In this document: piece by piece, positions 7,458 through 53,927 of the stretch | Position numbering within the stretch: the first letter of the stretch is position 1 | How the letters are laid out: the number at the start of each line of letters is the position of its first letter | DNA from: Rhynchopus sp. YZ270_cl-10 | Lineage: Eukaryota > Euglenozoa > Diplonemea > Diplonemida > Diplonemidae | Length of the DNA: 64,000 nucleotides | Assembly (NCBI GenBank): GCA_964035575.1 | Contig: OZ037896.1 | Coordinates: 1,271,165-1,335,164 of the forward strand | Direction of reading: 5' to 3' | Notes under the pieces: generated by a model | The model's input: only the letters and a program-made list of their open reading frames with translations | What the model was told of the DNA's origin: nothing | The model's database searches: none | Program-made: the position numbers and the translations under genes

Positions 7458-7529
7458 GGCACTAGAGGGGATCGAACCCTCGACCTCTCGCTTACTGGGC
7501 GAGCGCTCTAACCACTGAGCTATAGCGCC
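7458..7529 (-). tRNA. tRNA-Thr (AGT)
   Basis: Complete cloverleaf with acceptor GGCGCTA/TAGTGCC. The anticodon stem CTCGC/GCGAG closes the loop CCAGTAA, giving anticodon AGT. Position 33 is C instead of the near-universal U. Confidence 0.93.
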
Positions 7530-7650
7530 ATGCTTTCTCTCCATCTTCTTTTCTTTGAAGGGGGTCTTTTGAAATGTACAGAGCACGCATCAAAAATTTC
7601 CTTCATACCTCCGCAATGGTGAAAAAATTTTTAACGAAGAAGCCTAGTAA

Positions 7651-7732
7651 GGCGAGGTGGCCGAGTGGTCTAAGGCGCTACGTTCAGGTCGTAGTCTCTT
7701 CGGGGGCGTGAGTTCAAACCTCACCCTCGTCA
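7651..7732 (+). tRNA. tRNA-Leu (CAG)
   Basis: Class II tRNA with a long variable arm (TCTCTTCGGGGGC). The anticodon stem CTACG/CGTAG closes loop TTCAGGT, and the acceptor is GGCGAGG/CCTCGTC. A T5 run follows. Confidence 0.95.
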
Positions 7733-7809
7733 CTTTTTCTTCGTTGTGTGATCATCTAAAACCTATTTCCGCCCAAAGCTTGTTGTTTTATAGAAGCATC
7801 ATAATTGTG

Positions 7810-7881
7810 GGGCTCTTAGCTCAGTGGAAGAGCGCCCGTTCCGCATACGGGAGGCCGAGAGTTCGAACCTCTCAGGGTCCA
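7810..7881 (+). tRNA. tRNA-Ala (CGC)
   Basis: Cloverleaf with acceptor GGGCTCT/AGGGTCC. The anticodon stem CCCGT/ACGGG closes loop TCCGCAT, so the anticodon is CGC with C at position 33. A T run follows. Confidence 0.92.
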
Positions 7882-7955
7882 CAGTTTTTTTTTCTGATTT
7901 GTTTCTCCTGTGTAAATTGGTTCTCAGAGCTTTCACACCTTGCTCCCTAAAATGT

Positions 7956-8027
7956 GGCTGTTTAGCTCAGTGGTAGAGCACATCATCCGTAATGATGGGG
8001 TCGTGGGTTCAATCCCCACAGCGGCCT
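7956..8027 (+). tRNA. tRNA-Thr (CGT)
   Basis: Acceptor GGCTGTT/AGCGGCC. The anticodon stem CATCA/TGATG closes loop TCCGTAA, giving anticodon CGT with C at position 33. The T-arm GTGGG TTCAATC CCCAC is intact. Confidence 0.91.
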
Positions 8028-8159
8028 AGGTTTTTTTCAGAGCTTTCCTTTCAGACCTTTACAACCTAACTTGGGGTTTGTGGGTTTGCGGTCACTGGTG
8101 CACACATGGCCTGTGGATGGGCAGGGGCAAAAAAAATTGGGTGCTTGCGTTGTGTGCTG

Positions 8160-8478
8160 GATCGGGACCACCAGTAAACTGGCAATCCCACATCCAGTTC
8201 TAATATTTGAAGTGTGAAATAGAACGCAATCGGAAGATTAGTTTACACGAATGTAAGAATAATATCGTCATGGTAATATTCTGTACAGATTGTACGGGAT
8301 TTACTATCATATGAGAGTAGTCCGTCGCAGGCCACATCGGGCCCGCAACATGACCGGTCTTCACACAAAATTGTAAAAGAATTTTCTCAGAAGAAATGTC
8401 TTTTTCAAGTTTTTGTTGTTGCTGAACGAGTTGTTTGGTTTCGAAGTAGCACACTAACTTAGCACCCAAACATACAGC
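8160..8478 (-). ncRNA. Unassigned structured ncRNA, copy 1
   Basis: On the minus strand this is a diverged copy of 34967-35300. Shared blocks include GGGTGCTAAGTTAGTGTGC, AAACCAAACAACTCGTTCAG, TGTACAGAATATTACC and TTCACACTTCAAATATTAG. Between these the copies differ in ways that largely keep a GC-rich hairpin (GCGGGCCC..TGTGGCCTGCG here). The snRNA-type upstream box lies just upstream (8489-8530) and a T8 run follows the 3' end (8134-8141 region). Size, duplication and promoter box argue for a transcribed Pol III RNA. I could not match it to RNase P, MRP, U3, U4, 7SK or telomerase RNA. Confidence 0.6.
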
Positions 8479-8488
8479 AAACATCGGA

Positions 8489-8530
8489 ACACAAGACAGG
8501 GTCGTCTTGTTGGAGATGGGTCAGGGTCTG
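8489..8530 (-). promoter_or_regulatory. snRNA-type upstream promoter box
   Basis: On the minus strand this reads CAGACCCTGACCCATCTCC followed by AACAAGACGACCCTGTCTTG. The same box precedes U6 (17447), SRP RNA (34203), the second copy of the unassigned ncRNA (34912) and an orphan position (37360). Its constant distance to RNA starts suggests a proximal sequence element for SNAPc-like factors; the function is inferred. Confidence 0.75.
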
Positions 8531-8577
8531 GACATCCTCAAAACCACACACCTAACACAACAGAAGAAAAGTAAAAA

Positions 8578-8696
8578 GGATTCAAGCACCCGGACTTCCC
8601 AGCTGGTCACCCACGCCAGTACTATCCAGGCCTGCTGGTGCTTAACTTCTCAAATCAGGCGGGATGAGGTGTATTCACCAGAGTATGGCCGAATCC
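8578..8696 (-). rRNA. 5S ribosomal RNA
   Basis: A 119-nt 5S gene with intact terminal helix and internal promoter, the same as the copy at 7254-7372. It lies head to tail with the unassigned ncRNA, both on the minus strand. A T5 run follows the 3' end. Confidence 0.96.
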
Positions 8697-8743
8697 AATA
8701 ATAGGTCTGGATAGAAAAGCTGGGAAGACTTATTAACAGTCCG

Positions 8744-8806
8744 TTTTTACCTGAGAAGTTAGACACCTCTAAGCCTGGATAGTACTGGCGTGGGTGACCA
8801 ACTGGA
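8744..8806 (+). pseudogene. 5S rRNA fragment
   Basis: The segment resembles the 5S internal region (CTGAGAAGTTAGACACC then CCTGGATAGTACTGGCGTGGG) but lacks both ends and has substitutions in box A. It is a decayed partial 5S on the opposite strand to the neighbouring intact gene. Confidence 0.75.
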
Positions 8807-8881
8807 TAAATACACCGAAAAATAGATTTAAATTGTCAGACCGGTTCTTAGCTGTGCGCATCCATAAAAAACTAAAAAAAT

Positions 8882-8962
8882 ACTTGCGTCAGAAAATCCT
8901 AGTGTGTTGTACCGTGGTCCGAAATTCTTTCGGTCCCGGGTTCAACACCTGAGACGAATAAT
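8882..8962 (+). repeat. tRNA-like sequence (possible SINE head)
   Basis: Contains a TCCTAGTGTGTTGTACC stretch like a B-box-paired tRNA D-arm region, and CCGGGTTCAACACC, a good Pol III B box. It does not fold into a full cloverleaf. Similar tRNA-like sequences occur at 48541-48615 and 48647-48725, suggesting a tRNA-derived dispersed repeat. Confidence 0.45.
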
Positions 8963-9059
8963 ATATTTTGGTTTTTCCAGATTTTTCTCATTTTTTTGTC
9001 TCCTCACTCTTTCTGAGGATCTTCAAAATTGTCAAAAGTGAGAAATTTTTGGGAAAATG

Positions 9060-16380: not shown

Positions 16381-16516
16381 TGTAGAGAAAAAAGGCAACC
16401 AACGATTTCTAAAGCTACAGTTTCTGTACTTCATTGGTATGGAAGCATGAAGATTATATTCTTCTCACACAACTTTGTCAAAACATGGCCAGTTTCGAAA
16501 GAGACTGGCCTTTTTT
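16381..16516 (+). ncRNA. snRNA-like gene, family member 1
   Basis: Five copies of this sequence exist in the window. The conserved core has GGCAACCAACGATTTCTAAAG, a small hairpin TACAG-TTT-CTGTA, then TTCATTGGTATGGAAGC and a GAAGATTATATTCTTC hairpin. It continues with an Sm-like AACTTTGTCA and ends in a 10-bp GNRA-capped hairpin (GGCCAGTTTC GAAA GAGACTGGCC) followed by T6. The order GT-containing segment, hairpin, Sm-like site, terminal hairpin, T run matches spliced-leader and Sm-class RNAs. The TTTCTAAAG (TTTATAAAG in one copy) could be a TATA element, which would move the RNA start to near TTCATTGG. The identity is not established. Confidence 0.6.
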
Positions 16517-30282: not shown

Positions 30283-30325
<43 letters not shown>

Positions 30326-39898: not shown

Positions 39899-39971
39899 GC
39901 CTCCCTAGCTCAGTCGGTAGAGCGCAAGGCCCTTAACCTTGTGGTCGCGGGTTCGAGCCCCGCGGGAGGTG
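39899..39971 (+). tRNA. tRNA-Lys (CTT)
   Basis: Acceptor GCCTCCC/GGGAGGT. Loop CCCTTAA closed by CAAGG/CCTTG; C at position 33. An identical gene lies at 53146-53218 on the other strand. Confidence 0.94.
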
Positions 39972-40249: not shown

Positions 40250-40760
40250 GGCATGTCCAGTGTGCTCAGCTGCCGCTTCTTGGCGACTCACCAGTACAGA
40301 GTGGTGGAATCCAGCACAGAATGGAATGGCTGGGAAATCCTTAGCAATCCATAATTCAGATGGAAAAACTCCTGACCCGGCTATTGAATTTTCGGATCAT
40401 TTTCTCAGTCACAATGCAAGCACAGAATGGAAACCAAAACCAAGCACAGAATGGAACACGGCTATAAGACTCCAGCCATTCCATTCTGTGCTGGTTTTTC
40501 GTTTCCATTCTGTGCTTGCATTGTGACTGAGAAAATGATCTGAAAATTCAATACCCGGGTCAGGAGTTTTTTTTTCCACTCCTAACAAATCCTTACAGTA
40601 AGCCTATAAGTCTCCAGCCATTCCATTCTGTGCTGGTTTTTGGAGCCCATTCTGTGAGCACTCGCTCGGGCCTGTACTGGAGTATAGCGGCCAGGCCATC
40701 TCCCTTCTGCGTTCCTGCCTGTCACATCCAGTGCTCAGTTGCTGCTTCTTCAGCACAACC
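40250..40760. mobile_element. Foldback element related to the tRNA-Asp insertion
   Basis: Starts near 40282 with GGCGACTCACCAGTACAG and ends near 40692 with CTGTACTGGAGTATAGCGGCC, imperfect inverted ends like those of the insertion at 41659-49776. Inside, 40366-40470 and 40475-40575 are inverted copies (CAAGCACAGAATGG against CCATTCTGTGCTTG). Imperfect direct repeats TCCAGTGTGCTCAGCTGCC and TCCAGTGCTCAGTTGCTGC flank it. No coding region. Confidence 0.65.
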
Positions 40761-40789
40761 GCATCACATCACATCACCAAAAAATAGAA

Positions 40790-40861
40790 AGGCAACTGGG
40801 GGGATCGAACCCCCGACCCTTGGTTTACAAGACCAATGCTCTGCCACTGAGCTAAATCGCC
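40790..40861 (-). tRNA. tRNA-Thr (TGT)
   Basis: Minus strand. Acceptor GGCGATT/AGTTGCC; loop CTTGTAA closed by TTGGT/ACCAA. Unlike the other two Thr genes here it has U at position 33. Confidence 0.94.
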
Positions 40862-40944
40862 GCTGATTAAGATGCTTTTGCTGTTTCTCCTGCGAAGAAG
40901 TTTTTCAAGACAACACAGAAAGGAAAGTGTGTAAAAAAAGAAAT

Positions 40945-41008
40945 GACCCTAGACGAACCGCCGTTGATGGATTTGGAATCCATAGTGCTACCGCTACACC
41001 ATAGGGCC
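40945..41008 (-). pseudogene. tRNA-Trp (CCA) with shortened T-arm
   Basis: Minus strand. Acceptor GGCCCTA/TAGGGTC and the anticodon arm ATGGA TTCCAAA TCCAT are intact, but only 64 nt separate the ends. After CGGCGGTTCG the 3' strand of the T-stem is missing, about 8 nt short of a normal gene. Either it is a pseudogene or it encodes a T-arm-deficient tRNA. It is the only Trp gene in the window. Confidence 0.75.
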
Positions 41009-41093
41009 CATGATTTAGGGCTTCAATGCGTTTAGCATGAAGGTGGAAATTTTGCTGAAAATCCCACACAAAGGAAAAAGACACACAAAAAAG

Positions 41094-41166
41094 TGCGAGG
41101 TGCCAGGATCGAACTGACGACCTTAGGATTATGGGACCTACGCGCTCCCGACTGCGCCAACCTCGC
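41094..41166 (-). tRNA. tRNA-Met (CAT), elongator type
   Basis: Minus strand. Acceptor GCGAGGT/ACCTCGC; loop CCCATAA with C at position 33. The stem TAGGT/TCCTA has a U-U pair next to the loop. Without the GGG/CCC stem of initiators it is assigned as elongator. Confidence 0.88.
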
Positions 41167-41290
41167 CTTGATATTATCGTATCATTAAGAAATACATGGG
41201 GTGCAAATTTCTACAGGTTTGTGTGGCAAAAAAATTTTTTTGAGCCAAAAAATTTTATGGGCTTCTGTGAAAACAATGACAGTTGTAGAA

Positions 41291-41374
41291 CCTCTCGTAG
41301 CTCAATTGGTAGAGCGCTCGACTGTAGAATACTCGGTTATCGAGCGGTCGCTGGTTCGATTCCGGCCGAGAGGA
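41291..41374 (+). tRNA. tRNA-Tyr (GTA) with 11-nt intron
   Basis: Acceptor CCTCTCG/CGAGAGG. The anticodon stem CTCGA/TCGAG encloses CTGTAG, an 11-nt insert (AATACTCGGTT) one base 3' of the anticodon, then A. Position and presence of the intron fit nuclear tRNA-Tyr genes spliced by the tRNA endonuclease. Confidence 0.94.
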
Positions 41375-41451
41375 TTTTTTTCGTTTTCGTGTTCCAGATT
41401 ATTTTCTGCAAACAGATGACTGCCTAAAAACAAAGAACGGTGAGAATTACA

Positions 41452-41533
41452 GCAGTCGTATCCAAGTGGTTACGGAGGTGGACTAGAAATCCATTGGGCT
41501 CTGCCCGCGCAGGTTCAAGTCCTGCCGACTGCG
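41452..41533 (+). tRNA. tRNA-Ser (AGA)
   Basis: Class II. Acceptor GCAGTCG/CGACTGC, loop CTAGAAA, variable arm TGGGCTCTGCCCGC. Confidence 0.95.
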
Positions 41534-41631
41534 ATTCATTTTTTGTTCACAAAATTTCGTGCATTTTCGTCATTTCTGTGCTCATTTTGGACCATTTTAA
41601 TGCGCGAAATTAAATCAGAGTAAAGATTGTA

Positions 41632-41658
41632 TCCTCGGTAGTATAGAGGTCAGTATTT
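41632..41658 (+). pseudogene. tRNA-Asp (GTC), 5' part, split by insertion
   Basis: TCCTCGGTAGTATAGAGGTC and CAGTATTT form the acceptor 5' strand and D-arm. The 3' remainder is at 49777-49829. CAGTATTT is duplicated on both sides of the 8.1-kb insert, so the gene was intact before insertion. Confidence 0.95.
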
Positions 41659-41787
41659 GGCGACTATCAAGTACATTCGGACGCAACCAAGCACATTCTG
41701 GAAACGAAAACCAAGCACATTCTGGACGGATCCAGACTTGACCCACTTACAGGCCAAAAAAAATTTTTCTACACGGCGGGGCTGTGT

Positions 41788-42050
41788 CACACCTGTTACA
41801 CAGCTGAGGGTGTGTAACTTTCAATGATATGCGACATTTTGTGACAGTGTCACCGTGACACTCTCAGAAACCTGTGTGACACTGTCACAAATCGTGTGAC
41901 ACTGTCACGGAGACAGTGTCACAAGTCGTGTGACACTGTCACGGAGACAGTGTCACAAGTCGTGTGACACTGTCACGGAGACAGTGTCACACGACTTGTG
42001 ACACTGTCTCCGTGACAGTGTCACACGACTTGTGACAGTGTCACAGTGGC
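41788..42050. repeat. Left subterminal palindromes (GTGACACTGTC family)
   Basis: Repeated GTGTGACACTGTCACGGAGACAGTGTCAC units, each self-complementary, alternate with AAGTCGT spacers. The matching right-end array uses AAAATGT spacers instead. They are probably transposase-binding repeats (inference). Confidence 0.85.
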
Positions 42051-42329
42051 TATTGCCTCCCAGGGAAAGGGACTCTCGATTTTTTTTTTTTTGCCCTATA
42101 TAGGGCCAATTTCGGCGATTTGAGGCCATTGAAAGCAAAATTTGGCACTTTTGAGCATCTGTGGGGGTCTAAAACGCAATTTGCGCACCCGATTTTTCCA
42201 AAAAAAAAATTTTTCCTTCAAAAAGCCAATCTGAGGTTTCCTTTGGATTTTTTGGGCCATTTTATGACGTACCGCGCCCGAGTTTGTGCGGGGAATTTTT
42301 TTTTTTTTTTCCCCCCCGATCCTCTTCCA

Positions 42330-43911
42330 TGAGGTACCCAAACGCCCCTGGAAGCCCCGCCGCCAACCTGTCTTCCGTCTCGTTCAGAGCGACTCTTGCG
42401 CGAAAGACCAAGCCCCAGACCTGTCCTCTTCTTGTGCAGCTTGTTGAGCAGCGCCAACTTACTCTGGCTCATGTCCAACTGATGGCGGAACTCCAACAGG
42501 GTCTTCCCCACCTGAAGCACCGCCGCCGCCTCAGCACTACGCATGATCTTGCGGAATTGCTTCGTGTATGTCATTGTGTGGCGTGAATGTGTCCCTGTAG
42601 GGTTGGGAGATGATTATAAGTAGTGAAAACAGAATATGTGTGGTTCAACTCACTCCCATTGCACGCTATCATGGCGACATTGTGACATCCACACGGGTAT
42701 TTTAAGGGGATCGGTTTGCAATCCTGTGGAACCAAAAAAAAAAGGGTGGTGGGTATCTTTGAATAGCTCTGTCTGTGTATCGTTTTAAAAGGGGTGGAGA
42801 CAAAAAAAAGCAGATGAAGAAGAAAACAAGTAAAGTATTATGAAATTATTATTAAATGAACAACATAACCAAAATACACTCTATAATTCTAAGGGAAACA
42901 AGGGGGAATTAATGAAAAAAAAGTCACAAATGTTGAAATGCCTCCAAACTACTACAAGCGTCCGACGTCACCTTGCTGTTGTTTTGAGGGGTAACAACAC
43001 TGTCTTGTGTGCTGGGTGTACCTTCTGGGCCTGTTCGTACTACCCCGAGAAGTGCGTGAAAAGCTTCGAGGTCTTCCTTCTTTGTGAAGTCCTCGATGCA
43101 GAAGGTCTGCTTCACCTCGCAACTCTTTGCCGAAGATGGGGATGGTGACCACGGGGTTTGATCCCACCAGTGTACACAGTATACACACGTACACACGTAC
43201 ACACGTACACACGTACACACGTACACACGTACACACGTACACACGTACACACGTACACACGTACACACGTACACACGTACACAGGTACACACGTACACAC
43301 GCACACACGCACACACGTACACACGTACACACGCACACACGCACACACGCACACACGTACACACGTACACACGTACACACCTGCCGATCACTCACAGTCA
43401 CATTCTGAACGCCCCTCTATCATGACGGGGAAAGGATTTGCTTCCGTAGGCTGTTTCTCGGGCACAATGTTGGGGAAACGATTGGGTGGGGTGAGGGGTC
43501 GAGTGTCGAAGATACCTCTTTACCGTCGTCGTTGTCGTTGTCGTTGTCGTCATCCTTCGCCAGTGCCTCTTCATATATCATAGACATTTTGCTTTTTTTG
43601 TACTGCTCCACAATACCGTCCACCACCGTGCAGTAGAGGTCGTATTGCGCGTGGTTGTTGTTCTTCCAGTCGCGGATAACATCGTCTCTCACCTTGATAC
43701 CGTGCACAAACGTCGTCTTCGGCTGCCCTCTCTTGCGAATTCTGGGTCGCAGATAACGTCGTCTCTCACCTTCAGACCACCAAAATGCACTGCTTCTTCT
43801 CCTCGATACCAAACAGCTTGTCGAGAGCCTTCGCCACTTGAGGGCTTTGCTTGTTCATCTTCATACCAGTAGCTTTATTCACCAAAATGCGCAAAGCAGT
43901 CATTTCAACCT
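42330..43911 (-). pseudogene. Degenerate inverted copy of both element genes
   Basis: The minus strand reproduces, in order, the 43973-45202 gene with large deletions (its KATGMKMNKQSPQVA, GQPKTTFVHGIKVRDD and [19 protein letters not shown] blocks), the intergenic region, and the first 57 codons of the 45719 gene. The 43170-43380 octamer array replaces a middle section. A 20-bp deletion after GLGL shifts the frame of the second gene. Opposite the first gene the differences are largely at third codon positions, whereas the second is almost identical. The two halves may therefore have different histories. Confidence 0.82.
43170..43385. repeat. (ACACGTAC)n octamer array
   Basis: About 27 copies of an 8-bp unit, ACACGTAC with CACACGCA variants, inserted in the degenerate gene copy. 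Reading frames through it (TYTRTHVH on one strand, VCTCVRVY on the other) are artefacts. Confidence 0.93.
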
Positions 43912-43972
43912 TTTCAAACATTTTTTTTCAGATCTTTGCACTCACGACAGACTTTCTACACCAGAATTAAAA

Positions 43973-45202
43973 ATGTCTGATAAGATTGAGTTTGCGTACC
44001 TGCTGGAATTCTTGCAGTGTTACGTGTGCAAAGCGCCGAAAAAAGTGTCGGAAAAGGTGGAAATGACTGCTTTGCGGCTTTTCGTGAACAAAGCGACGGG
44101 CATGAAGATGAACAAGCAAAGCCCCCAAGTCGCGACGGCTCTCGACAAGCTGTTTGGTGTCGAGGAGAAGAAGCAAAAGGGCAGTGGGAAGAAGAAGAAG
44201 AAGAAGGACGACGACGACGACGACGACGACGACGAAGACGACAAGAAGATACCCTTCGTGTCCGTGACAGATCAGAAAAAAACGACACGCCCGGCGGATG
44301 TGTACAAGACCAGTATTCGCAGGAGAGGGCAGCCGAAGACGACGTTTGTGCACGGTATCAAGGTGAGAGACGATGTTATCCGCGACTGGAAGAGCAAAGG
44401 CCACGCGCAATACGACCTCTACTGCAGGGTGGAGGACGGTATTGTGGAGCAGTACAAAAAAAGCAAAATGTCTATGATATATGAAGAGTCACTGGCGAAG
44501 AATAAGGATGATGAAGACGAAGACGACGACGACGACAACAACGACAACGACAGCACTCAGTGTTGCTCTACCCCTCAGCCCCCGCAGAAGAGGCGTCGCC
44601 TTGTATCTTCGACACCCGACGGACCTGCCGTCAAGTACCTTACCCCACCCAATCGTTTCCCCAACGTTGTGCCCTTACAGCCGCAGGAACAAAACACCTT
44701 CCGCGTCCTGATAGAGGGGACGTTTCAGGATGTGAGTGTGAGTGTGGGTGATCGGCTTGTGACGTTGCTGATGCGTCGGGTGATTGGGGAGGGGTCGGGG
44801 TCCCCTCCAGGGGATTATACGCAGGAGTTTGAGCTCCCACGTGCGTGGGACCCCAGTCGTACCATCACGACTATGGTGGTGGGATCAAACCCCGTGGTCA
44901 CCATCCCCATCTTGGCAAAGAGTTGCGAGGTGAAGCAGACCTTCTGCATCGAGGACTTCACAAAGAAGGAAGACCTCGAAGCTTTTCACGCACTTCTCGG
45001 GGTAGTACGAACAGGCCCAGAAGGTACACCCAGCACACAAGACAGTGTTGTTACCCCTCAAAACAACAGTGTTGTTACCCCTCAAAACAACAGTGGTGGT
45101 GGTGAAGCCGGAGGTGGTGAAGCCGGAGGTGGTGAAGCCGGAGGTGGTGAATCCGGAGGTGGTGAAGCCGGAATTGGCGAAGGTGACGTCGGGCGCTTGT
45201 AG
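43973..45202 (+). CDS. Element gene A: charged protein of unknown function, 409 aa
   Basis: The start is placed at the Met of MSDKIEFAYL (43973) because similarity to the inverted copy begins just inside it. The open frame runs further upstream to 43838 through untypical sequence. An upstream TTTTTTTTCAG could be a splice acceptor. Residues 1-75 are globular (LLEFLQCYVCKAPKKVSEKVEMTALRLFVNKATG). A Lys-run/Asp-run follows at about 77-100, then a basic conserved block (RRRGQPKTTFVHGIKVRDDVIRDWKSK) and a second acidic stretch. A C-terminal domain follows (FCIEDFTKKEDLEAFHALLG), and finally six GGGEAG-type repeats. No known family is recognised. A related, mainly silently diverged copy exists at 42930-43911, which suggests past selection on the protein. 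Unlike a transposase, it shows no DDE-type motif. Confidence 0.75.
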   Translation: MSDKIEFAYLLEFLQCYVCKAPKKVSEKVEMTALRLFVNKATGMKMNKQSPQVATALDKLFGVEEKKQKGSGKKKKKKDDDDDDDDDEDDKKIPFVSVTDQKKTTRPADVYKTSIRRRGQPKTTFVHGIKVRDDVIRDWKSKGHAQYDLYCRVEDGIVEQYKKSKMSMIYEESLAKNKDDEDEDDDDDNNDNDSTQCCSTPQPPQKRRRLVSSTPDGPAVKYLTPPNRFPNVVPLQPQEQNTFRVLIEGTFQDVSVSVGDRLVTLLMRRVIGEGSGSPPGDYTQEFELPRAWDPSRTITTMVVGSNPVVTIPILAKSCEVKQTFCIEDFTKKEDLEAFHALLGVVRTGPEGTPSTQDSVVTPQNNSVVTPQNNSGGGEAGGGEAGGGEAGGGESGGGEAGIGEGDVGRL

Positions 45203-45718
45203 TTTCCAGGCATTTCAACATTTGTGACTTTATTTATTCATGAATTCCCCGTGTGTTAGTTACCGACAATACGGAGAATTTCTTGTTATTTGCGTTATTT
45301 GCGTTATAATACTTATTTTGTTCATTTAATATTTTACTTGTTTTCTTCTTCATTTGCTTTGTTGCGGTGTCTGTTCGAAGCCGTTGATTTTGTCCAACAG
45401 CACCGGTTACCGACAATACGGAGGATTTTCTTTTTATGTTGTGCTCACACCCGTTGAGTTCCCCCCGGGAACCCAGCTTGCATTTTGTGCAGTACCTTTT
45501 TAAAAAAAAACGATACACAGACAGAGCTATTCAAAGATACCCACCACCCTTTTTTTTTTGGTTCCACATGATTGCAAACCGATCCCCTTAAAATACCCGT
45601 GTGGATGTCACAATGTCGCCATGATAGCGTGCAATGGGAGTGAGTTGAACCACACATATTCTGTTTTCACTACTTATAATCATCTCCCAACCCTACAGGG
45701 ACACATTCACGCCACACA
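45203..45718. promoter_or_regulatory. Intergenic region between element genes A and B
   Basis: The 516-bp spacer contains two copies of GTTACCGACAATACGGAG (near 45261 and 45407) and a GATCCCCTTAAAATACCCGTG region that is strongly conserved in the inverted copy (42690-42720). Conservation outside coding sequence suggests gene B's promoter lies at 45540-45718. Confidence 0.5.
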
Positions 45719-47755
45719 ATGACATACACGAAGCAATTCCGCAAGATCATGCGTAGTGCTGAGGCGGCGGCGGTGCTTCAGGTGGGGAAGACCCTGTTGG
45801 AGTTCCGCCATCAGTTGGACATGAGCCAGAGTAAGTTGGCGCTGCTCAACAAGCTGCACAAGAAGAGGACAGGTCTGGGGCTTGGTCTTTTGCGCAAGCG
45901 GGTGAGGGGGTTGGAGAGAGTCGCTCTGAACGAGACGGAAGACAGGTTGGCGGCGGGGCTTCCAGGGGCGTTTGGGTACCTCATGGAAGAGGATCGGAAG
46001 AGCGGGGCTGCGCTTGTGCGGGACAGCAGATTGCCCCTTGTGGGGGTAATGTTTACGGATGGGTACACCCCCCGCAACTCGCTCCGAACCCGGAATGGCA
46101 GGATCCGCATGTCCTTCGGTCTTCTCAACTTCGAGACCGGGGCTTACAGCCCACCCATAACGGTAAAGGACACGACAAAAAAAAAATGGGGGCGCTACGA
46201 GCACGTGACGTTGCAGGATGACATCCTGAATCTGCATCGTTCGGCGTGCGAGGCGAGCGAGAGGTTGGTTTCCGTTCTGTTGGGGAGGCTCACCAACGAT
46301 CATCTAGATCGGTGGTTGAAAGTGGAGGGATGTGGCGGCCGTGCGCACCGTTGTTGCATTTGCCCCATACCCAGCTCCCAGTGGTTGCTCCACCAGCACA
46401 ACTGCCCCCACCTCAGCCTCCAAGAAATGCATGCGAACGGCTTCCCCTCACGCCTTGCCCTGGTCACCCCGCACGCCCGGTTTGTCTCCCCCGCTTTGCA
46501 TGATCTCAGGGGAATGATTCTCCACATTTCGGAGATCCTTGACGATCATGCAAAGCCTCTTCTCCACGAGCAATCGCGTGCTTGCCATTGTGACATCTCG
46601 CAGAACGCCACTTGTGCGGATGCTCGCAAAGTCGCAGAGAAGATGGCGGGGTGTTCCGACCTGGAAGGGACATGGCGGTGGGTGTACGTCTGTGTCAGTG
46701 AACTGGCATCCTTCCGGTACCGGAACGTCCCCTGGAGGTACCACATCCTCGAAGAACCTGGGACCCTGTATCCGTTCCTCAGGGCCCGACTTGCTGGCCA
46801 CCTCTTCATTTTTTTGATGGAGTACCAGCAGGCTGGCAGCACGAAGAACGCTTACATGCATTCTCTGCAGCACTGGTGGAGCAGACACGATGCTGTACCA
46901 TTGGAGGTGAACGATGAGCGTGAAGAGGCGCAGCAGGGGCAGAGGAAGGCGAGGGCTCAGGGTTTTACTAGCCCTCAGACCTACGAGAGAGACCTCGCCC
47001 TCCTCGAGCACAAAAGTCGCCAGCCTGGGAAGCATTGGGACGCTCCCGCGCTTAATGATCGTGGCTTGTTGGGGTTCAAGGAGATCTTCCTCTGCAGCTG
47101 CATCAGCAACACCCCCATACAGAAGCTTGCAACATATCGTCTTCTCTCTCAGCTGCACGAGCTGTCCCCCTCCTTCATCAGTGTTCCTGAGGATACAAGC
47201 CAACATCACGTTCGCTTTGTATTTCCGCAGGGGGTGAAGAAGGCTCTCGTTTGTGTTTGCAACACAGAACTCGCGACATTGTCGTACACCAACTTCTCCC
47301 CGGACCCTGCAGTCCTCGCATCTCTGGAGAGGGCTGCACAGGAGGAGTGGGATAAGTGTGGACATGATGGGGTTGGGGTGGAAGAGGACAAGGCACCAGA
47401 GGAAGACAAGGCACCAGAGGAGGATAAGGGGGAAGAAGATGAGGACGAGGAGGACGACGACGACGACAGTGAGGAAGAGGTGATGGTGGTGTGTGATTTT
47501 TGTGGAGGGGACCTCTGGGAAAGAGGCTTATCGGCGCATATTGATGCCCCTAACACGGCTTTATGCACGTGCACAGGTGCATGTCGATTTTGCCCCAAAA
47601 AATTGAACAGAGTGGACATGACCCAACATGTTTCACTACAACATCCCCATATTTTTAACACAGCAAACTATTGCAAGCTGTGTTGGGAAAAATGCCCGAG
47701 TAAGGCAGCTTTTCGTCTTCACTTTGAAGATGTTCATGTGAGCTTTGGAGCATGA
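45719..47755 (+). CDS. Element gene B: 678-aa protein with C-terminal zinc fingers, candidate transposase
   Basis: Starts MTYTKQFRKIMRS. The same start and 57 following residues are kept in the inverted copy. Residues 20-80 are basic and helical. Residues 105-140 read LPLVGVMFTDGYTPRNSLRTRNGRIRMSFGLLNF with omission of nothing between, where Asp114 in a hydrophobic strand resembles the first catalytic Asp of DDE-type transposases. A Cys/His cluster lies at 205-231 and another around 290-320. An acidic run (EEDEDEEDDDDDSEEE) at about 570-585 precedes three fingers: CDFCGGDLWERGLSAH, CRFCPKKLNRVDMTQHVSLQH and CKLCWEKCPSKAAFRLHFEDVH, the last a classical C2H2. It is the largest product of the element and the only one with nucleic-acid-binding modules. 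The family is not recognised; transposase is an inference. Confidence 0.72.
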   Translation: MTYTKQFRKIMRSAEAAAVLQVGKTLLEFRHQLDMSQSKLALLNKLHKKRTGLGLGLLRKRVRGLERVALNETEDRLAAGLPGAFGYLMEEDRKSGAALVRDSRLPLVGVMFTDGYTPRNSLRTRNGRIRMSFGLLNFETGAYSPPITVKDTTKKKWGRYEHVTLQDDILNLHRSACEASERLVSVLLGRLTNDHLDRWLKVEGCGGRAHRCCICPIPSSQWLLHQHNCPHLSLQEMHANGFPSRLALVTPHARFVSPALHDLRGMILHISEILDDHAKPLLHEQSRACHCDISQNATCADARKVAEKMAGCSDLEGTWRWVYVCVSELASFRYRNVPWRYHILEEPGTLYPFLRARLAGHLFIFLMEYQQAGSTKNAYMHSLQHWWSRHDAVPLEVNDEREEAQQGQRKARAQGFTSPQTYERDLALLEHKSRQPGKHWDAPALNDRGLLGFKEIFLCSCISNTPIQKLATYRLLSQLHELSPSFISVPEDTSQHHVRFVFPQGVKKALVCVCNTELATLSYTNFSPDPAVLASLERAAQEEWDKCGHDGVGVEEDKAPEEDKAPEEDKGEEDEDEEDDDDDSEEEVMVVCDFCGGDLWERGLSAHIDAPNTALCTCTGACRFCPKKLNRVDMTQHVSLQHPHIFNTANYCKLCWEKCPSKAAFRLHFEDVHVSFGA

Positions 47756-47963
47756 AAGGGTGGTGGGGTGTGGGGCGTGTAATTTTTTGTTCGTAGTGAA
47801 GGGATGGGGCGGGCCGGGTTACAAGCAAACAGTGTGCAATATCTTCTTTACCGGGGTTTCTTGTGGGGGCGGGTGTGGTCTTTACCGGGGTTTCTTGTGG
47901 GGGCGGGTGTGGGGTATTGGGTTTTTTCTTAGTGCAAACCTTGGTTCCTGGGTATTCCTCACA

Positions 47964-48165
47964 GCTTGTGACAGTGTCACACTGGTGTGTGACACTGTCA
48001 CAAAATGTGTGACACTGTCACGGAGACAGTGTCACAAAATGTGTGACACTGTCTCCGTGACAGTGTCACACATTTTGTGACACTGTCTCCGTGACAGTGT
48101 CACAAAATGTGTGACAGTGTCACATGTGACACTGTCTCCGTGACAGTGTCACATGTGACACAGCC
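47964..48165. repeat. Right subterminal palindromes (GTGACACTGTC family)
   Basis: Same palindrome family as the left end, with AAAATGT spacers. Just upstream, CTTTACCGGGGTTTCTTGTGG is tandemly duplicated at 47848-47915. Confidence 0.85.
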
Positions 48166-48289
48166 CCGCCGTGTACACAAAAAAAATTTTTTTTTCACAG
48201 AACAAGATTTTTGAGAAAATTTTTCACGCCAAAACTTTGTCTCACCTGAAAATGACAAAAAATGTAACCTACACCAGCCAGATAACACA

Positions 48290-48540
48290 ACCTAGAACCT
48301 GCAGGTTCCCGCACACCCGCACAACCACACCAGCCAGATAACGCTGCCAGAACCCCGCACACCCGCACAACCACACGAACCAGCTAAGGACCGCAAACCC
48401 GCGCACCCGTCAACCCGCAAACCCGCACAACCACCAGCCAGATAACGCAACCTAGAACCAGCAGGTTCCCGAACACCCGCACCCAACAGCCAGTTAAAAC
48501 AAACCAGGCAGACAACCTTAGATCCATAATTCACTTTTCG
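48290..48540. repeat. Degenerate ACCCGCA-rich tract
   Basis: Irregular AACCCGCACA/AACCCGCAAACC phrases interleaved with CCAGCCAGATAACGC. It looks like a decayed or nascent relative of the AAACCCGC octamer arrays at 54762 onward. Confidence 0.7.
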
Positions 48541-48615
48541 GGTTCTGGGGTTTGAACCTCCAACACCGAAGAAACTCTTATGTGTGGAACCTGCGTGCTA
48601 CACACTAGGACACTT
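48541..48615 (-). repeat. tRNA-like sequence (SINE-like), left of a head-to-head pair
   Basis: On the minus strand, GTGTCCTAGTGTGTAGCACGC followed about 35 nt later by GGAGGTTCAAACCCCAG, which is a good Pol III B box. The anticodon region does not fold normally. It pairs head-to-head with 48647-48725. Confidence 0.5.
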
Positions 48616-48646
48616 AGTCCTTAGTGAAAATCCTTATGGAAGACAT

Positions 48647-48725
48647 AGTGTCCTAGTGGGTACCACACAGGTCCCTTACAGTGTGGATTCTTATTGGTTG
48701 GAGGTTCAAACCCCTGAGGGAGCAG
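48647..48725 (+). repeat. tRNA-like sequence (SINE-like), right of a head-to-head pair
   Basis: GTGTCCTAGTGGGTACCACAC followed by GGAGGTTCAAACCCCTGAGG, the same arrangement as 48541-48615 and 8882-8962. Likely tRNA-derived. Confidence 0.5.
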
Positions 48726-48739
48726 TTTTTGTTTCCACC

Positions 48740-49776
48740 AATGAATCCTTAAGGATTTGTTAGGGGAAAAGTGAATTCTGGATTGCTCAGGATTTCCCAG
48801 CCATTCCAGAATGTGCTTGCATCTCAGAAAAGGGCACTTTTTCGTTTCAAACCAAAAAGTGCCCTTTTCCAAGATGCAAGTACATTCTGGAATGGCTGGG
48901 AAATCCTTAAGGATCCAGAATTCACTTTTCCTTAAGGATTTGTTAGGGGAAAAGTGAATTCTGGATTGCTCAGGAATTCCCAGCCATTCCAGAATGTGCT
49001 TGCATCTCAGAAAAGTGCACTTTTTCGTTAAAAACCAAAAAGTGTCCTTTTCTGAGATGCAAGCACATTCTGGAATGGCTGGGAATTCCTGAGCAATCCA
49101 GAATTCACTTTTCCCCTAACAAATCCTTAAGGAAAAGTGAATTCTGGATCCTTAAGGAATTCCCAGCCATTCCAGAATGTACTTGCATCTCAGAAAAGTG
49201 CACTTTTTCGTTAAAAACCAAAAAGTGCACTTTTCTCAGATGCAAGTACATTCTGGAATGGCTGGGAATTCCTTAAGGATCCAGAATTCACATTTCCTTA
49301 AGGATTTGCTAGGGGAAAAGTGAATTCTGGATTGCTCAGGAATTCCCAGCCATTCCAGAATGTGCTTGCATCTGAGAAAAGTGCACTTTTTGGTTTTTAA
49401 CGAAAAAGTGCACTTTTCTGAGATGCAAGTACATTCTGGAATGGCTGGGAATTCCTTAAGGATCCAGAATTCACTTTTCCTTAAGGATTTCACTGCAGGA
49501 AAATACCGGAAAATTTCTGACCCGGGTATTGAATATCCGGACCCTATTCTCAAAAAAATGCAAGCACATTCTGAAACCAAAATGCAAGCACATTCTGGAA
49601 ATCGTTATTTTTCTGAAAACCAAGCACATTCTGGAAACGAAAACCAAGCACAGTCTGGAACACGGCTATAAGGCCCCGGCTATTCCAGAATGTGCTTGGT
49701 TTTCGTTTCCAGAATGTGCTTACATTTTGGGGTCCAGAATGTGCGTATTCGCACCAGGCTGTACTGGAATATGGCC
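48740..49776. repeat. Foldback array of CATTCTGGAATGGCTGGGAATTCC units
   Basis: At least five alternating inverted units of about 150 bp built from GGAAAAGTGAATTCTGGAT, CCAGCCATTCCAGAATGT, CATCTCAGAAAAGTGCAC and ACTTTTTCGTT. The whole tract can fold into long hairpins. It forms the right-hand part of the 8.1-kb insertion. Confidence 0.85.
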
Positions 49777-49829
49777 CAGTATTTCCGCCTGTCACGCGGA
49801 AGACCCGGGTTCAATTCCCGGCCGGGGAA
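49777..49829 (+). pseudogene. tRNA-Asp (GTC), 3' part, split by insertion
   Basis: Begins with the duplicated CAGTATTT, then the anticodon arm TCCGC CTGTCAC GCGGA, T-arm and acceptor CCGGGGA, which pairs with TCCTCGG at 41632. With the left part it makes a normal 72-nt tRNA-Asp, so the insertion is the only defect. Confidence 0.95.
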
Positions 49830-49891
49830 TTCTTTTTTGTACAGGGCTCCCATTCATTGTTTCGTTTCTTTTCTGATGAAAATCAAATCAG

Positions 49892-49964
49892 GCCCCGTTG
49901 GCGCAATGGATAGCGCGTTGGACTTCGAATCCAAAGGTTGCGGGTTCGAGTCCCGCACGGGGTT
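49892..49964 (+). tRNA. tRNA-Arg (TCG)
   Basis: Acceptor GCCCCGT/ACGGGGT. Loop CTTCGAA closed by TTGGA/TCCAA. Confidence 0.95.
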
Positions 49965-50237
49965 AACTTTTTGAACATTGTTTTTTTGAACTTTTTTGAA
50001 AACACAAAAAAGTGAGAGATTGGTGTCAAATGAATTACAGTGACAACAGATAAAAACATTGGGTCCAGTGGGAAGGGGGGTAACCCAGGGATTTTGGATT
50101 TTTTGGTAGTCAACCCACCCGTAAGAAAGTTGAAAAATTTTTGGGGAAAACTTGAAAACTGGAAATTCTTTGAAAAGTCGACATTTCAGAAATATTTTCT
50201 GAACATGAAAATTTTGCTTCCCCCTAAAAAAAAGAAC

Positions 50238-50309
50238 TGCACTTACCGGGAGTCGAACCCGGGCCGCTCGCTTGGAAGGCGAGAATACTAACCGTTATAC
50301 CATAAGTGC
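50238..50309 (-). tRNA. tRNA-Gly (TCC)
   Basis: Minus strand. Acceptor GCACTTA/TAAGTGC; loop CTTCCAA closed by CTCGC/GCGAG. Confidence 0.95.
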
Positions 50310-50398
50310 TGTTACTTTCATGCAAAGTGTTTTCCTTGTGGGGGGCGATTTCAAAATGAAAATAATTTGAAATTGTTCAAATTGTTTAAAAAAAGAAG

Positions 50399-50470
50399 CA
50401 ACCGTGGCAGGACTCGAACCTGCAACCGCCTGATCCGTGGTCAGGCGCTCTTCCATTGAGCCACACGGTC
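50399..50470 (-). tRNA. tRNA-Arg (ACG)
   Basis: Minus strand. Acceptor GACCGTG/CACGGTT; loop CCACGGA closed by CCTGA/TCAGG. Position 33 is C. Confidence 0.93.
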
Positions 50471-50557
50471 CATGTCTTTAGGCAATAGTATTTTTTATGT
50501 GGCCTGCATATTTTTGGAGTTGGAAAAAATGAAAATGGTTGATTGTACAGCTAAAAA

Positions 50558-50629
50558 AGCGGTTACCGAGAATTGAACTCGGGTCTCCCGTGCCACAAAC
50601 GGGTGTTCTAACCACTAAACCATAACCGC
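50558..50629 (-). tRNA. tRNA-His (GTG)
   Basis: Minus strand. Acceptor GCGGTTA/TAACCGC; loop TTGTGGC closed by CCCGT/ACGGG. The extra 5' G of tRNA-His is not encoded, as usual in eukaryotic nuclei. Confidence 0.94.
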
Positions 50630-50745
50630 TTGAATACTCCCACTTATTGGGATCTCAGAAAGGGTTTTATTTCCCGGGACATTGTGAAATATTTTTCAAC
50701 TATGCAACGAGCGGCAACTCGAGCACAATTTCGACTAATATCGTA

Positions 50746-50816
50746 GCGTAATTGGTCTAGTGGTAGAATGGCCCCCCGCCACGGGGTCGGCCCGGGTTCG
50801 ATTCCCGGATTACGCA
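50746..50816 (+). tRNA. tRNA-Gly (GCC)
   Basis: Acceptor GCGTAAT/ATTACGC; loop CCGCCAC closed by GCCCC/GGGGT, with C at position 33. Confidence 0.92.
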
Positions 50817-50989
50817 CTCTCTTTTTGCGATTGGAAAAAGCAAAACAATATGGTTTCGGACAGTTTCAGGTCGGTCACAAACTCGTTCAAAACGAAAAAG
50901 TGGAAATGATATGTACTCTTTCTTGTGTAAGGATTCTTAGTGGAGAAAGAATTTTTTTGTCTGATGCGGGTTTTTGCTCGACATAGTAA

Positions 50990-51370
50990 GTCAGTTCAGT
51001 CACAACTTCCGTCACAATCGAAAAAAAATTTGACTCACATGTTTATAAACCCATACTGACTTACATGTTTATTTGTTCACAAAAATCCCAGTTCATAAAC
51101 ATGTAAGTCAGTATGGCCGCTCTGGTGGCCACATGTTTTTGGGTTAACTTACGTGTTTATGAAAAACCTGACTTACATGTTTATTTGTTCACAAAATTCC
51201 CTGGGTTAATAACCATGTAAGTCAGGTTTTTCATAACCATGTAAGTCAGGTGTTTTCATAACCATGTAAGTCAGGTTGGGACTACGACATGTTCATAAAC
51301 CCAACCTGACTTACATGTTTATTTCTTCACAAAATTCCCAGTAAATAAACATGTAAGTCAGTATGGCCGG
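50990..51370. repeat. Inverted GACTTACATGTTTAT repeats
   Basis: Six or more alternating copies of CTGACTTACATGTTTAT and ATAAACATGTAAGTCAG with TTGTTCACAAAATTCCC spacers. They form perfect hairpins and look like a small foldback element. No gene is seen. Confidence 0.8.
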
Positions 51371-51404
51371 TGCGCTGGTCAGAGGTAATATGATCATCAG
51401 GTTT

Positions 51405-51720
51405 GCGGGCCGACCCCCCTGTGCGCCCGATTAGGGACCCCCTGTGCGCCCGATTAGGAATCCCCCTGTGCGCCCGATTAGGAATCCCCCTAGTCACTGT
51501 GACCAGGTGCCCCTACTAATATGCCTTACCAATATGGCCTGGGCTGTGGTATGTCGGGTGTACTACATGCTGGGACCTAAAGAGGAACCACATGCTGGAA
51601 CACGGCTTTAAGCCCCCACCCATTTCAGCTGTGGTTCCTACTGTGCCCAGTCACTGTGACCAGGTGTCTGGTCAGATCTGACCAGGTACCCTTACTAATA
51701 TGCCTGACCAATATGGCCAG
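51405..51720. repeat. TGTGCGCCCGATTAGGAATCCCCC tandem repeat and flanking duplications
   Basis: Four copies of CTGTGCGCCCGATTAGG followed by NATCCCC lie at 51419-51490. The phrases GTGACCAGGTGCCCCTACTAATATGCC and GACCAGGTACCCTTACTAATATGCC recur at 51500 and 51680. Nothing is recognised between here and 51969 either. Confidence 0.7.
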
Positions 51721-51968
51721 GGGTGGTATGTCGGGTGCACAAGGGAGTTTCACGATGGGTTATCTTATGCACAGGTACAGTGGATGTAGAAAACCCGCAA
51801 ACCCATTGTGTGTGGGTTTTCTGGCATAGGACTGTATGGAAAGTGCACGGGTCCACCACAGTACAACCAGTCATGCACCAAGGGACACTGGCTGTTTTAT
51901 CACTTTTTGAACTTTTTTAGACACTGCCAAACCTTCTCCATAATCTGAGATCTTGGGAAACAAGATAA

Positions 51969-52040
51969 GCTCGCGTGGCGCAATGGAAGCGCGTCGGTTC
52001 CCGACGCCGGAGGTTGCGGGTTCGATCCCCGCCGCGAGTA
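51969..52040 (+). tRNA. tRNA-Arg (CCG)
   Basis: Acceptor GCTCGCG/CGCGAGT; loop TCCCGAC closed by TCGGT/GCCGG. Position 33 is C. Confidence 0.91.
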
Positions 52041-52167
52041 CTTTTTGTTCATTCCAAAATATTTTTAGATTTCCTCCTTTTGTCACAAAACTTTGCCAAA
52101 TTGAAAATTCAGAAATGCGAAAATATCAAAAAAAACAGCTCCGAAATTTGAAAGCAATCAAAAAGGA

Positions 52168-52239
52168 TTCCCCCTCCGGGGTTTGAACCCGGGTCGCCTG
52201 GGTGAAAGCCAGGTATACTAACCACTGTACTAAAGGGGA
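52168..52239 (-). tRNA. tRNA-Glu (TTC)
   Basis: Minus strand. Acceptor TCCCCTT/AGGGGGA; loop CTTTCAC closed by CCTGG/CCAGG. Confidence 0.95.
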
Positions 52240-52332
52240 GGTGATACTTAGGCACAATCCAAAAAGGGTACTTTTGTGCAAGCAACACGGAATTTCAAAC
52301 GAAAAAATAAAAATGAAAATCCAAAAAGACAA

Positions 52333-52404
52333 GGGCTCGGCGGGGAATTGAACCCCGGACCTCTCGCACCCTAAGCGAGAATCATGCCACTAGACCACCG
52401 AGCC
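52333..52404 (-). tRNA. tRNA-Pro (AGG)
   Basis: Minus strand. Acceptor GGCTCGG/CCGAGCC; loop TTAGGGT closed by CTCGC/GCGAG. Confidence 0.95.
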
Positions 52405-52518
52405 ACGAATTCTCTCGCATTCTCTTCGTAACGCGGCCATAAGTTTCCGTCATTCCTTGTGTGTGTTTTCGTTTTGAATAAGGTCCCCATGTAAATGCTG
52501 TCTTCGCTAACAATCAGA

Positions 52519-52591
52519 TCCTCCTTGGCGCAGTCGGTAGCGCGTCAGGCTGTTAACCTGCAGGTCGTTGGTTCGAACCCAACAGGAGGAG
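52519..52591 (+). tRNA. tRNA-Asn (GTT)
   Basis: Identical in sequence to the gene at 38827-38899, but the flanks are different, so the pair is not a recent segmental duplication. Confidence 0.95.
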
Positions 52592-52844
52592 ATTTTTCAT
52601 TTTTTTTGAGTTTTTGAGTCCAATTTTAATTTTGAGCAAAAAACCCACGTTGTGTGTCATCTTGATGTTGAAACTATTTTTCAGGACTTCCAAGGTTGTC
52701 TCACCAAAAAAACCAAACATCTTGAATGCTGTCCTAACTTGGAGATTCTTGACCTGAAGATAAAACAGATTTTGCCAGGTTTTTTTTGAGTTTGAAAAAG
52801 TTCAGAAAAGAATGAAAAAAGGGATCGATGCAGTGTATAAAAAA

Positions 52845-52926
52845 CGCGAACGGCAAGGTTCGAACTTGCGCATGCAGAGCACACTCGCTTAGCAGGCGAG
52901 CCCCGTAACCACTTGGGTACGTCCGC
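52845..52926 (-). tRNA. tRNA-Ser (GCT)
   Basis: Minus strand, class II. Acceptor GCGGACG/CGTTCGC; loop CTGCTAA closed by CTCGC/GCGAG; variable arm TGTGCTCTGCATGC. Confidence 0.94.
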
Positions 52927-53145
52927 TTAATTACCTGTCAGTACTTAGGACGAAGCTTGTACTTTGTTTAACGACACGTTAGTGATCACTTGCGTGGTCA
53001 CCAAAAATCATTGCGATTGTGACCACCAAAAAAAATTTTTGGGCACGATTTCGCACGATGGCGGGCTCACTGCACAACGACCGACACACCATGTTTTCCA
53101 ACAAATAAAAAAATTTCAGAAAAATTCAGGTATCAATACAAAAAG

Positions 53146-53218
53146 CACCTCCCGCGGGGCTCGAACCCGCGACCACAAGGTTAAGGGCCTTGCGCTCTAC
53201 CGACTGAGCTAGGGAGGC
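53146..53218 (-). tRNA. tRNA-Lys (CTT)
   Basis: Minus strand and identical to 39899-39971, including C at position 33 (loop CCCTTAA). Confidence 0.94.
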
Positions 53219-53320
53219 TCATATTAACTTAAATCGAAGAATCAACGTGGGGTACTTGTGTGTACCTGCAACCACCAAATTTTCCATCGTTGTTGTGTGA
53301 ACAAAAGGATCCGGATTATC

Positions 53321-53392
53321 TCTCCTATGGTGTAGTGGTTAGCACCCTGGACTTTGAATCCAGTAGCCGCGGTTCAAACCCGCGTGGGAGAA
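53321..53392 (+). tRNA. tRNA-Gln (TTG)
   Basis: Acceptor TCTCCTA/TGGGAGA; loop CTTTGAA closed by CTGGA/TCCAG. A paralogue of the Gln(CTG) gene at 38491. Confidence 0.95.
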
Positions 53393-53509
53393 CTTTTCTT
53401 TTTCCAAGTGTTTTCAATATTTTTTGGAGCTTTGTCACACACACATCTTCAATCTTTGCATTTGATGGCAAAAACATAAATCCCAGAAATCAAACGAAAA
53501 GGTAAAGAA

Positions 53510-53591
53510 CGCTGACGGCAGGGTTCGAACCTGCGCGGGCAGAGCCCAGTGGATTTCAAGTCCACCTCCGTAACCACTTGGATACGTCAGC
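53510..53591 (-). tRNA. tRNA-Ser (TGA)
   Basis: Minus strand, class II. Acceptor GCTGACG/CGTCAGC; loop CTTGAAA; variable arm like that of Ser(AGA) at 41452. Confidence 0.95.
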
Positions 53592-53670
53592 ATAGTTGAG
53601 GAAGTACAACGCCCCAGATCCTGAAAATGAGCACAAAAAAAAGAGAATCCAATTGATCCAAAAAAGTAGG

Positions 53671-53742
53671 CACCCGCCGTGGGGATCGAACCCACGACCA
53701 TTGGATTAAAAGTCCAACGCTCTACCGCTGAGCTAGGCGGGC
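53671..53742 (-). tRNA. tRNA-Lys (TTT)
   Basis: Minus strand. Acceptor GCCCGCC/GGCGGGT; loop CTTTTAA closed by TTGGA/TCCAA; U at position 33, in contrast to the two Lys(CTT) genes. Confidence 0.95.
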
Positions 53743-53855
53743 ATTCGTTTTAAAGGAAAGAGTCAATTTCAAGGCTTGTTGCGTTCTTGAAAAAATTGAC
53801 AAAATAGACGAACAGAACGTGCCCCAAGTACCTCTCCTTGAGGGACATTTATCAG

Positions 53856-53927
53856 GGGCGTTTAGCTCAGTGGTAGAGCGCCCGTTCTGCATACGGGAGG
53901 CCGAGGGTTCGAACCCCTCAATGTCCA
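53856..53927 (+). tRNA. tRNA-Ala (TGC)
   Basis: Acceptor GGGCGTT/AATGTCC. Loop TCTGCAT closed by CCCGT/ACGGG, with C at position 33, as in both other Ala genes here. Confidence 0.93.

Follow-up and report, generated by a model that had tools for sequence, protein, structure and literature searches.

Cytosine at tRNA position 33 in ten elongator isoacceptors of a diplonemid genome: a candidate for C-to-U editing

The uridine directly 5' of the anticodon (U33), which supports the U-turn of the anticodon loop, counts as nearly invariant in transfer RNA (tRNA). This work concerns tRNA genes that encode cytosine at this position (C33) in a 64,000-nucleotide stretch of a diplonemid genome, called the window from here on (contig positions 1271165-1335164 of a 152.4-Mb, 126-contig assembly), and in further stretches of the same assembly. 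With a chance that we place only just below even, these genes reflect a new cytosolic editing system of diplonemids, which would turn the C33 of ten elongator isoacceptors into U33 and on which more than a quarter of the codons in two tubulin open reading frames (ORFs) would depend. Either an essential RNA-editing step has gone unreported, or eukaryotes can translate on a large scale with elongator tRNAs that have C33, and both outcomes change what the U-turn is thought to need. The case also bears on how an editing activity frees an otherwise constrained base to change. Diplonemids reportedly rank with the most abundant microeukaryotes of the sea (PMC10161547), and one diplonemid species is genetically tractable (PMC12621601). 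The published assembly of Diplonema papillatum contains 211 tRNA genes (PMC10161547), and draft genomes exist for six diplonemids (PMC12621601).

Described systems of tRNA editing and natural C33

In Methanopyrus kandleri, C8 is edited to U8 in 30 of 34 tRNAs by CDAT8, as shown by RNA-Seq (PMC3695527). The likeness is that, in one lineage, many tRNA genes have C in place of a near-universal U. M. kandleri is, however, an archaeon in which position 8 is edited by the orphan enzyme CDAT8 (PMC3695527), and the present case concerns position 33 in 10 of 45 isoacceptors of a eukaryote, as read from the genes. CDAT8 was looked for here only through PF00383.

In Vibrio cholerae, the position edited by TrcP is reportedly 32. 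This enzyme also deaminates C to U in a tRNA anticodon loop (tRNA-Tyr, C to pseudouridine), but it is a fused deaminase-pseudouridylase which acts on one bacterial tRNA at another position than 33 (PMC9553926).

The pair formed by TRM140 and ADAT2/3 in Trypanosoma brucei resembles the present case in being euglenozoan, in acting on a nuclear-encoded tRNA within the anticodon loop and in editing the base adjoining 33, and ADAT2 is present here too (PMC6382703). However, the trypanosome base is 32 and its substrates are three tRNA-Thr isoacceptors, the portion of that paper available to us describing no editing at 33, while here the base is 33 and six amino-acid families are involved (PMC6382703). 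Editing of the trypanosome C32 type was rejected on these two grounds. C32 editing has also been described for two nuclear tRNA-Ser of Arabidopsis, with the enzyme given as unknown (PMC6382703).

Regarding natural C33, the initiator tRNA-Met with C33 is a genuine C33 tRNA (PMC9023262), but C33 is there confined to the initiator, while the present genome has it in elongators and keeps U33 in the initiator. The tRNA-Cys(GCA) of Sulfolobales is a clade-typical elongator gene with C33, of which the mature form was not isolated; it is one archaeal isoacceptor, in contrast with ten here, including all the Ala tRNAs found (PMC7668247). Among open-licence papers, in the parts of their text that were available, we found neither C33 across a set of nuclear elongator tRNAs nor a C-to-U edit of base 33. 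The structural-RNA section on D. papillatum does not mention base 33 (PMC10161547).

C33 genes in the window and in the assembly

ARAGORN called 34 tRNA genes in the window and Rfam gave 36 tRNA matches. In 11 of the 34 genes, the anticodon loop has 7 bases with C directly before the anticodon (Table 1), and the remaining 23 encode U33. These 11 are the loci that a previous reading of the letters (the sequence-only reading) had named as C33 genes within intact cloverleaves, which is borne out by the base read directly before the anticodon and by Rfam scores of 53.8-67.1 bits. Its total of 37 tRNA loci was recovered in part, as ARAGORN found 34; the figure probably corresponds to these 34 plus three damaged T33 copies that ARAGORN skipped. 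Its statement that all other loci have U33 is right for the 23 genes as well as for the three damaged copies. Equally, all Ala genes are affected and Thr and Lys are mixed, as it had noted, and the split between C33 and U33 within an amino acid is also found in Gly and Arg. Oligo-T is present 3' of all 11 C33 genes within the 25 bases read.

Table 1. Positions in the window of the C33 tRNA genes, followed by damaged tRNA copies and other small-RNA features.
Feature	Position	Strand	Description	Method and score
tRNA-Thr(AGT)	7457..7529	-	loop CCAGTAA, C33 at 7497	ARAGORN, Rfam 67.1 bits
tRNA-Ala(CGC)	7810..7882	+	loop TCCGCAT, C33 at 7841	ARAGORN, Rfam 58.9 bits
tRNA-Thr(CGT)	7956..8027	+	loop TCCGTAA, C33 at 7987	ARAGORN, Rfam 62.0 bits
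tRNA-Ala(AGC)	38327..38399	+	loop TCAGCAT, C33 at 38359	ARAGORN, Rfam 53.8 bits
tRNA-Lys(CTT)	39899..39972	+	loop CCCTTAA, C33 at 39931	ARAGORN, Rfam 63.4 bits
Elongator tRNA-Met(CAT)	41093..41166	-	loop CCCATAA, C33 at 41134	ARAGORN, Rfam 55.9 bits
tRNA-Arg(ACG)	50398..50470	-	loop CCACGGA, C33 at 50439	ARAGORN, Rfam 62.0 bits
tRNA-Gly(GCC)	50746..50817	+	loop CCGCCAC, C33 at 50777	ARAGORN, Rfam 54.0 bits
tRNA-Arg(CCG)	51969..52041	+	loop TCCCGAC, C33 at 52000	ARAGORN, Rfam 57.9 bits
tRNA-Lys(CTT), identical second copy	53145..53218	-	C33 at 53186	ARAGORN, Rfam 63.4 bits
tRNA-Ala(TGC)	53856..53927	+	loop TCTGCAT, C33 at 53887	ARAGORN, Rfam 65.8 bits
Damaged Trp copy	40944-41008		6-base deletion in T arm; T33	skipped by ARAGORN
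Damaged Asp copy	about 49780-49827		5' part truncated or replaced; T33	skipped by ARAGORN
Damaged Ile-AAT copy	54704-54776		cut off by AAACCCGC array; T33	skipped by ARAGORN
Spliced-leader (SL) RNA gene	16399..16436	+	exon CCAACGATTTCTAAAGCTACAGTTTCTGTACTTCATTG, then GT	
Further SL RNA copies	start 16836, 17255, 34739			
Broken SL RNA copy	17834			
Small-RNA block	7253..8696		5S rRNA at 7253-7372 and 8577-8696 flank Thr-AGT, Leu-CAG, Ala-CGC and Thr-CGT	ARAGORN, Rfam
Small-RNA block	34262..53927		signal recognition particle (SRP) RNA, SL RNA, U2, U4, U5, two 5S rRNA, tRNA clusters 38154-41533 and 49891-53927	

The Met gene with C33 was assigned as elongator by G1, the T-loop TTCGATC and U31-U39. 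It contrasts with the initiator, which has A1 and the T-loop ATCGAAA and, in 8 of 8 calls, the anticodon loop CTCATAA with U33, and the two Met tRNAs thus differ at base 33. One ARAGORN call, a 'Ser-AGA' at 41291, was reassigned to a Tyr-GTA with an 11-base intron and U33.

The sample was then the window plus 32 further stretches on 11 contigs, with 503 ARAGORN tRNA calls, or 481 distinct loci once overlaps were removed; these take in a few damaged copies and, with initiator and elongator Met counted apart, represent 45 isoacceptors. Base 33 was C in 110 loci, T in 371 and a purine in none. It was constant within every isoacceptor, so that the tabulation that the sequence-only reading had proposed gives fixed C in ten isoacceptors (Ala-AGC, Ala-CGC, Ala-TGC, Arg-ACG, Arg-CCG, Gly-GCC, Lys-CTT, elongator Met, Thr-AGT and Thr-CGT) and T in thirty-five. 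This constancy over the distinct loci also agrees with its view that C33 is not random decay. The ten span six amino-acid families and include all Ala tRNAs and the only elongator Met found. Since cassette duplication makes the copies near-identical, the independent evidence consists of ten isoacceptors, not of hundreds of copies, and sister isoacceptors, Ala-TGC and Ala-CGC for instance, may share one event. For Lys-CTT, a pattern open at base 33 with one mismatch allowed gave 168 matches, with C in the first 100 listed. Leu-TAA was absent from the 481 loci; in D. papillatum, the available text likewise reports no Leu-UAA tRNA and a high-copy Lys-CUU (PMC10161547). As a separate observation, neither tubulin ORF uses the codon TTA.

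U33 paralogues were searched for over the 152-Mb assembly with exact patterns, because the tRNA family search scored 63 of 7713 candidates; a T33 gene differing in a pattern's fixed letters would escape such counts. The generic Ala arm pattern matched 271 times with C33 and never with T33. The T33 forms of the generic patterns for Thr-AGT/CGT, Lys-CTT and Arg-ACG/CCG had no match in the assembly, nor did that of Gly-GCC, for which the pattern is narrow. The Met T33 pattern matched 86 times, always with the initiator arm, which gives 86 initiator-Met copies in the assembly; C33 of the initiator type was discarded on this basis, together with the initiator calls given above. As a control, the C forms recovered 114 of 114 C33 calls in hand, the genome-wide positive control being for Ala only. 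Hence, no U33 paralogue of the kind that the sequence-only reading had seen as fatal to its claim turned up with these patterns. Retrocopies of mature tRNAs with T33, which would betray editing, were not among the T33 pattern matches.

These results bear on whether the C33 loci could be pseudogenes, misaligned anticodons or assembly errors. According to the part of PMC9023262 available, surveyed tRNA genes that depart from conserved positions generally also show further mutations and score low, which makes them most likely pseudogenes, the C33 initiator Met being excepted. A few damaged tRNA copies do exist in the window. Nevertheless, the C33 genes have intact structures, the Rfam scores and the 3' oligo-T given above, C33 occurs in 110 of 110 loci of the ten isoacceptors and no Ala T33 match exists in the assembly. 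Damaged positions, low scores and, as far as the patterns reach, a functional paralogue, the marks of tRNA pseudogenes, were all missing from the C33 genes. For Ala, the pattern counts speak directly against this explanation within what the pattern can detect, and overall we consider it extremely improbable.

Furthermore, the C33 genes look active. All 45 isoacceptors retain T8, A14, T55, C56 and A58 (the numbering of three genes was shifted by one for an extra 5' base), and 43 of 45 retain T54, with A54 in Ala-AGC and initiator Met; among the positions checked, the deviation of these genes is at 33 only. Their use was estimated from two tubulin ORFs (Pfam match; read as one alpha and one beta; 897 codons, both start codons included), with codons assigned to tRNAs by the ordinary wobble rules. 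By these rules, 244 of the 897 codons are read by C33 tRNAs. Lys is AAG in 33 of 33 codons and Arg is CGC or CGT in 42 of 44, with Gly as the exception, where GGA (44 of 72) is decoded by a U33 tRNA (Gly-TCC has U33 and Gly-GCC has C33). Codons ending in C or G are favoured for most amino acids in these ORFs.

Editing and tolerance of C33

The best explanation, to which we would give an even chance, is that C33 transcripts are deaminated to the normal U33 before translation, most likely by the wobble deaminase ADAT2/3, alone or with a partner, as at C32 in trypanosomes, although another cytidine deaminase would also be possible. Given such an activity, T-to-C changes at 33 would do no harm and could build up isoacceptor by isoacceptor, while purines at 33 would still be purged, as deamination cannot make U from them. 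The structure of ADAT2/3 with tRNA has a splayed-out base 33 that can touch ADAT2 close to the active site (PMC9643335). In T. brucei, methylation precedes the editing of C32 in tRNA-Thr(AGU) by ADAT2/3 (PMC6382703), and C34 of the imported tRNA-Trp is edited in trypanosomatids (PMC12699882). M. kandleri is a precedent for a lineage whose genes have C for a universal U in most tRNAs, with the correction made in the RNA (PMC3695527). Regarding diplonemids, 114 deamination sites are reported in D. papillatum mitochondrial RNA (PMC12699882), and a possible C-to-U activity of the D. papillatum ADATs was proposed by the authors for another tRNA problem (PMC10161547).

In this genome, PF00383 matches four loci, read as ADAT2, a dCMP-type deaminase, RibD and a cytidine deaminase, and PF14437 has three matches above the cut-off and one below. 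ADAT2 is present, with its HAE and PCVMC motifs intact; ADAT3 was not recovered by PF00383 or PF14437.

Several points weigh against editing. The expanded set of tRNA deaminases that the sequence-only reading had expected, or a new one, was not seen: the four PF00383 loci are all of ordinary kinds, and PF14437 adds one sub-threshold match. This negative is weak, because ADAT3 was also missed and genes split by introns can escape. The evidence for editing comes from DNA sequence, and the absence of purines at 33 equally fits a plain pyrimidine requirement. No shared sequence determinant of the C33 tRNAs seems to stand out, the best association being A23 (8 of 10 vs 8 of 35, uncorrected p 0.0017, of several hundred comparisons, in an alignment with the Tyr intron left in). 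Moreover, 10 IMG/VR loci (viral, presumably phage) have 131 tRNA calls, 11 of them with C33, which means that C33 may be usable unedited.

Eight of these 11 viral C33 calls are on L041 and L042, both fetched for their C33 Ala, which inflates the viral figure; the baseline on 27 prokaryote loci is 1 of 123 calls. The Ala pattern had C33 in 2 stretches and T33 in 8 in IMG/VR, and C33 in none and T33 in 27 stretches in genome_contigs, while the Lys-CTT pattern had no match in IMG/VR. The IMG/VR tRNA arrays with C33 are on L041, L042, L044, L045 and L050, presumably phages; examples are Val-GAC (loop TCGACAC; three contigs) and Ala-GGC (loop TCGGCAT; two contigs).

In yeast suppressor and tRNA-Phe studies, C33 tRNAs are reportedly partly or largely functional. 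Mature diplonemid tRNAs could keep C33, with the ribosome and elongation factor of the host accepting it, perhaps as a modified or protonated C or with compensating loop modifications; T-to-C changes would have drifted to fixation, a pyrimidine sufficing at 33. We hold this to be a serious possibility, somewhat short of even. It is consistent with the lack of a dedicated deaminase among the PF00383 loci, with the absence of purines over the 481 loci and with the natural C33 tRNAs of initiator Met (PMC9023262), Sulfolobales tRNA-Cys (PMC7668247) and viral contigs. On the other hand, the pattern described in the available part of PMC9023262 suggests selection against C33 in elongators, and the C33 tRNAs of this genome include heavily used ones, among them Lys(CUU), with its 168 pattern matches and its AAG codon as the only Lys codon of the tubulin ORFs. 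Tolerance and C-to-U editing, the two options left by the sequence-only reading, both still fit, and the choice between them is not decided by the DNA; editing, at about an even chance, is slightly favoured.

C33, unedited or modified, could also be a functional signal that sets decoding speed, mitochondrial import or resistance to anticodon-loop nucleases, with selection keeping the C/U split. The split is exact and constant per isoacceptor, it divides Thr, Lys, Gly and Arg within the amino acid, and the U33 initiator with a C33 elongator Met is the reverse of the C33 initiator described in PMC9023262. However, no codon, amino-acid or sequence rule was seen between the C33 and U33 isoacceptors, and fixation among copies made near-identical by cassette duplication is not independent evidence of selection. 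Such a role is very unlikely in our judgement.

Host lineage and small-RNA cassettes

The host is, judging from its SL RNA genes and the relatives of its ADAT2, a diplonemid other than D. papillatum. Five SL RNA copies in the window, of the diplonemid type, have the core ACAGTTTCTGTACT, which we take to be the diplonemid/kinetoplastid leader core; in four of these copies, GT comes after the exon CCAACGATTTCTAAAGCTACAGTTTCTGTACTTCATTG. The dinoflagellate spliced leader had no match in the window, and the euglenozoan leader had none in IMG/VR. Among the 120 matches listed for ADAT2, the best after itself are a Rhum_ protein (68%; read as Rhynchopus humris) and a D. papillatum protein (67%), followed by three unnamed proteins at 59-62%, with named non-diplonemids at 51% or less.

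Besides tRNA genes, Rfam found four 5S rRNA genes, U2, U4, U5, U6 and SRP RNA in the window. The genes for tRNA, 5S, U2, U4, U5, U6, SRP and SL RNA form a common cassette in arrays, located near contig ends or internally, and the larger block of the window is broken up by non-tRNA DNA. In D. papillatum, a smaller SL-5S-U2 unit is described (PMC10161547). The same Rfam families as in the window cassette were found at C1:1414400-1457399.

Between the small-RNA blocks, positions 19604-29293 contain a long ORF with a reverse transcriptase domain (PF00078) and long CAG-type repeats, a LINE-like (long interspersed nuclear element) element. Finally, the 8-mer AAACCCGC forms two long arrays, at 54762-55987 and 58989-61438, and CTCCTTAG is repeated 100 times at positions 1-806 of the window.

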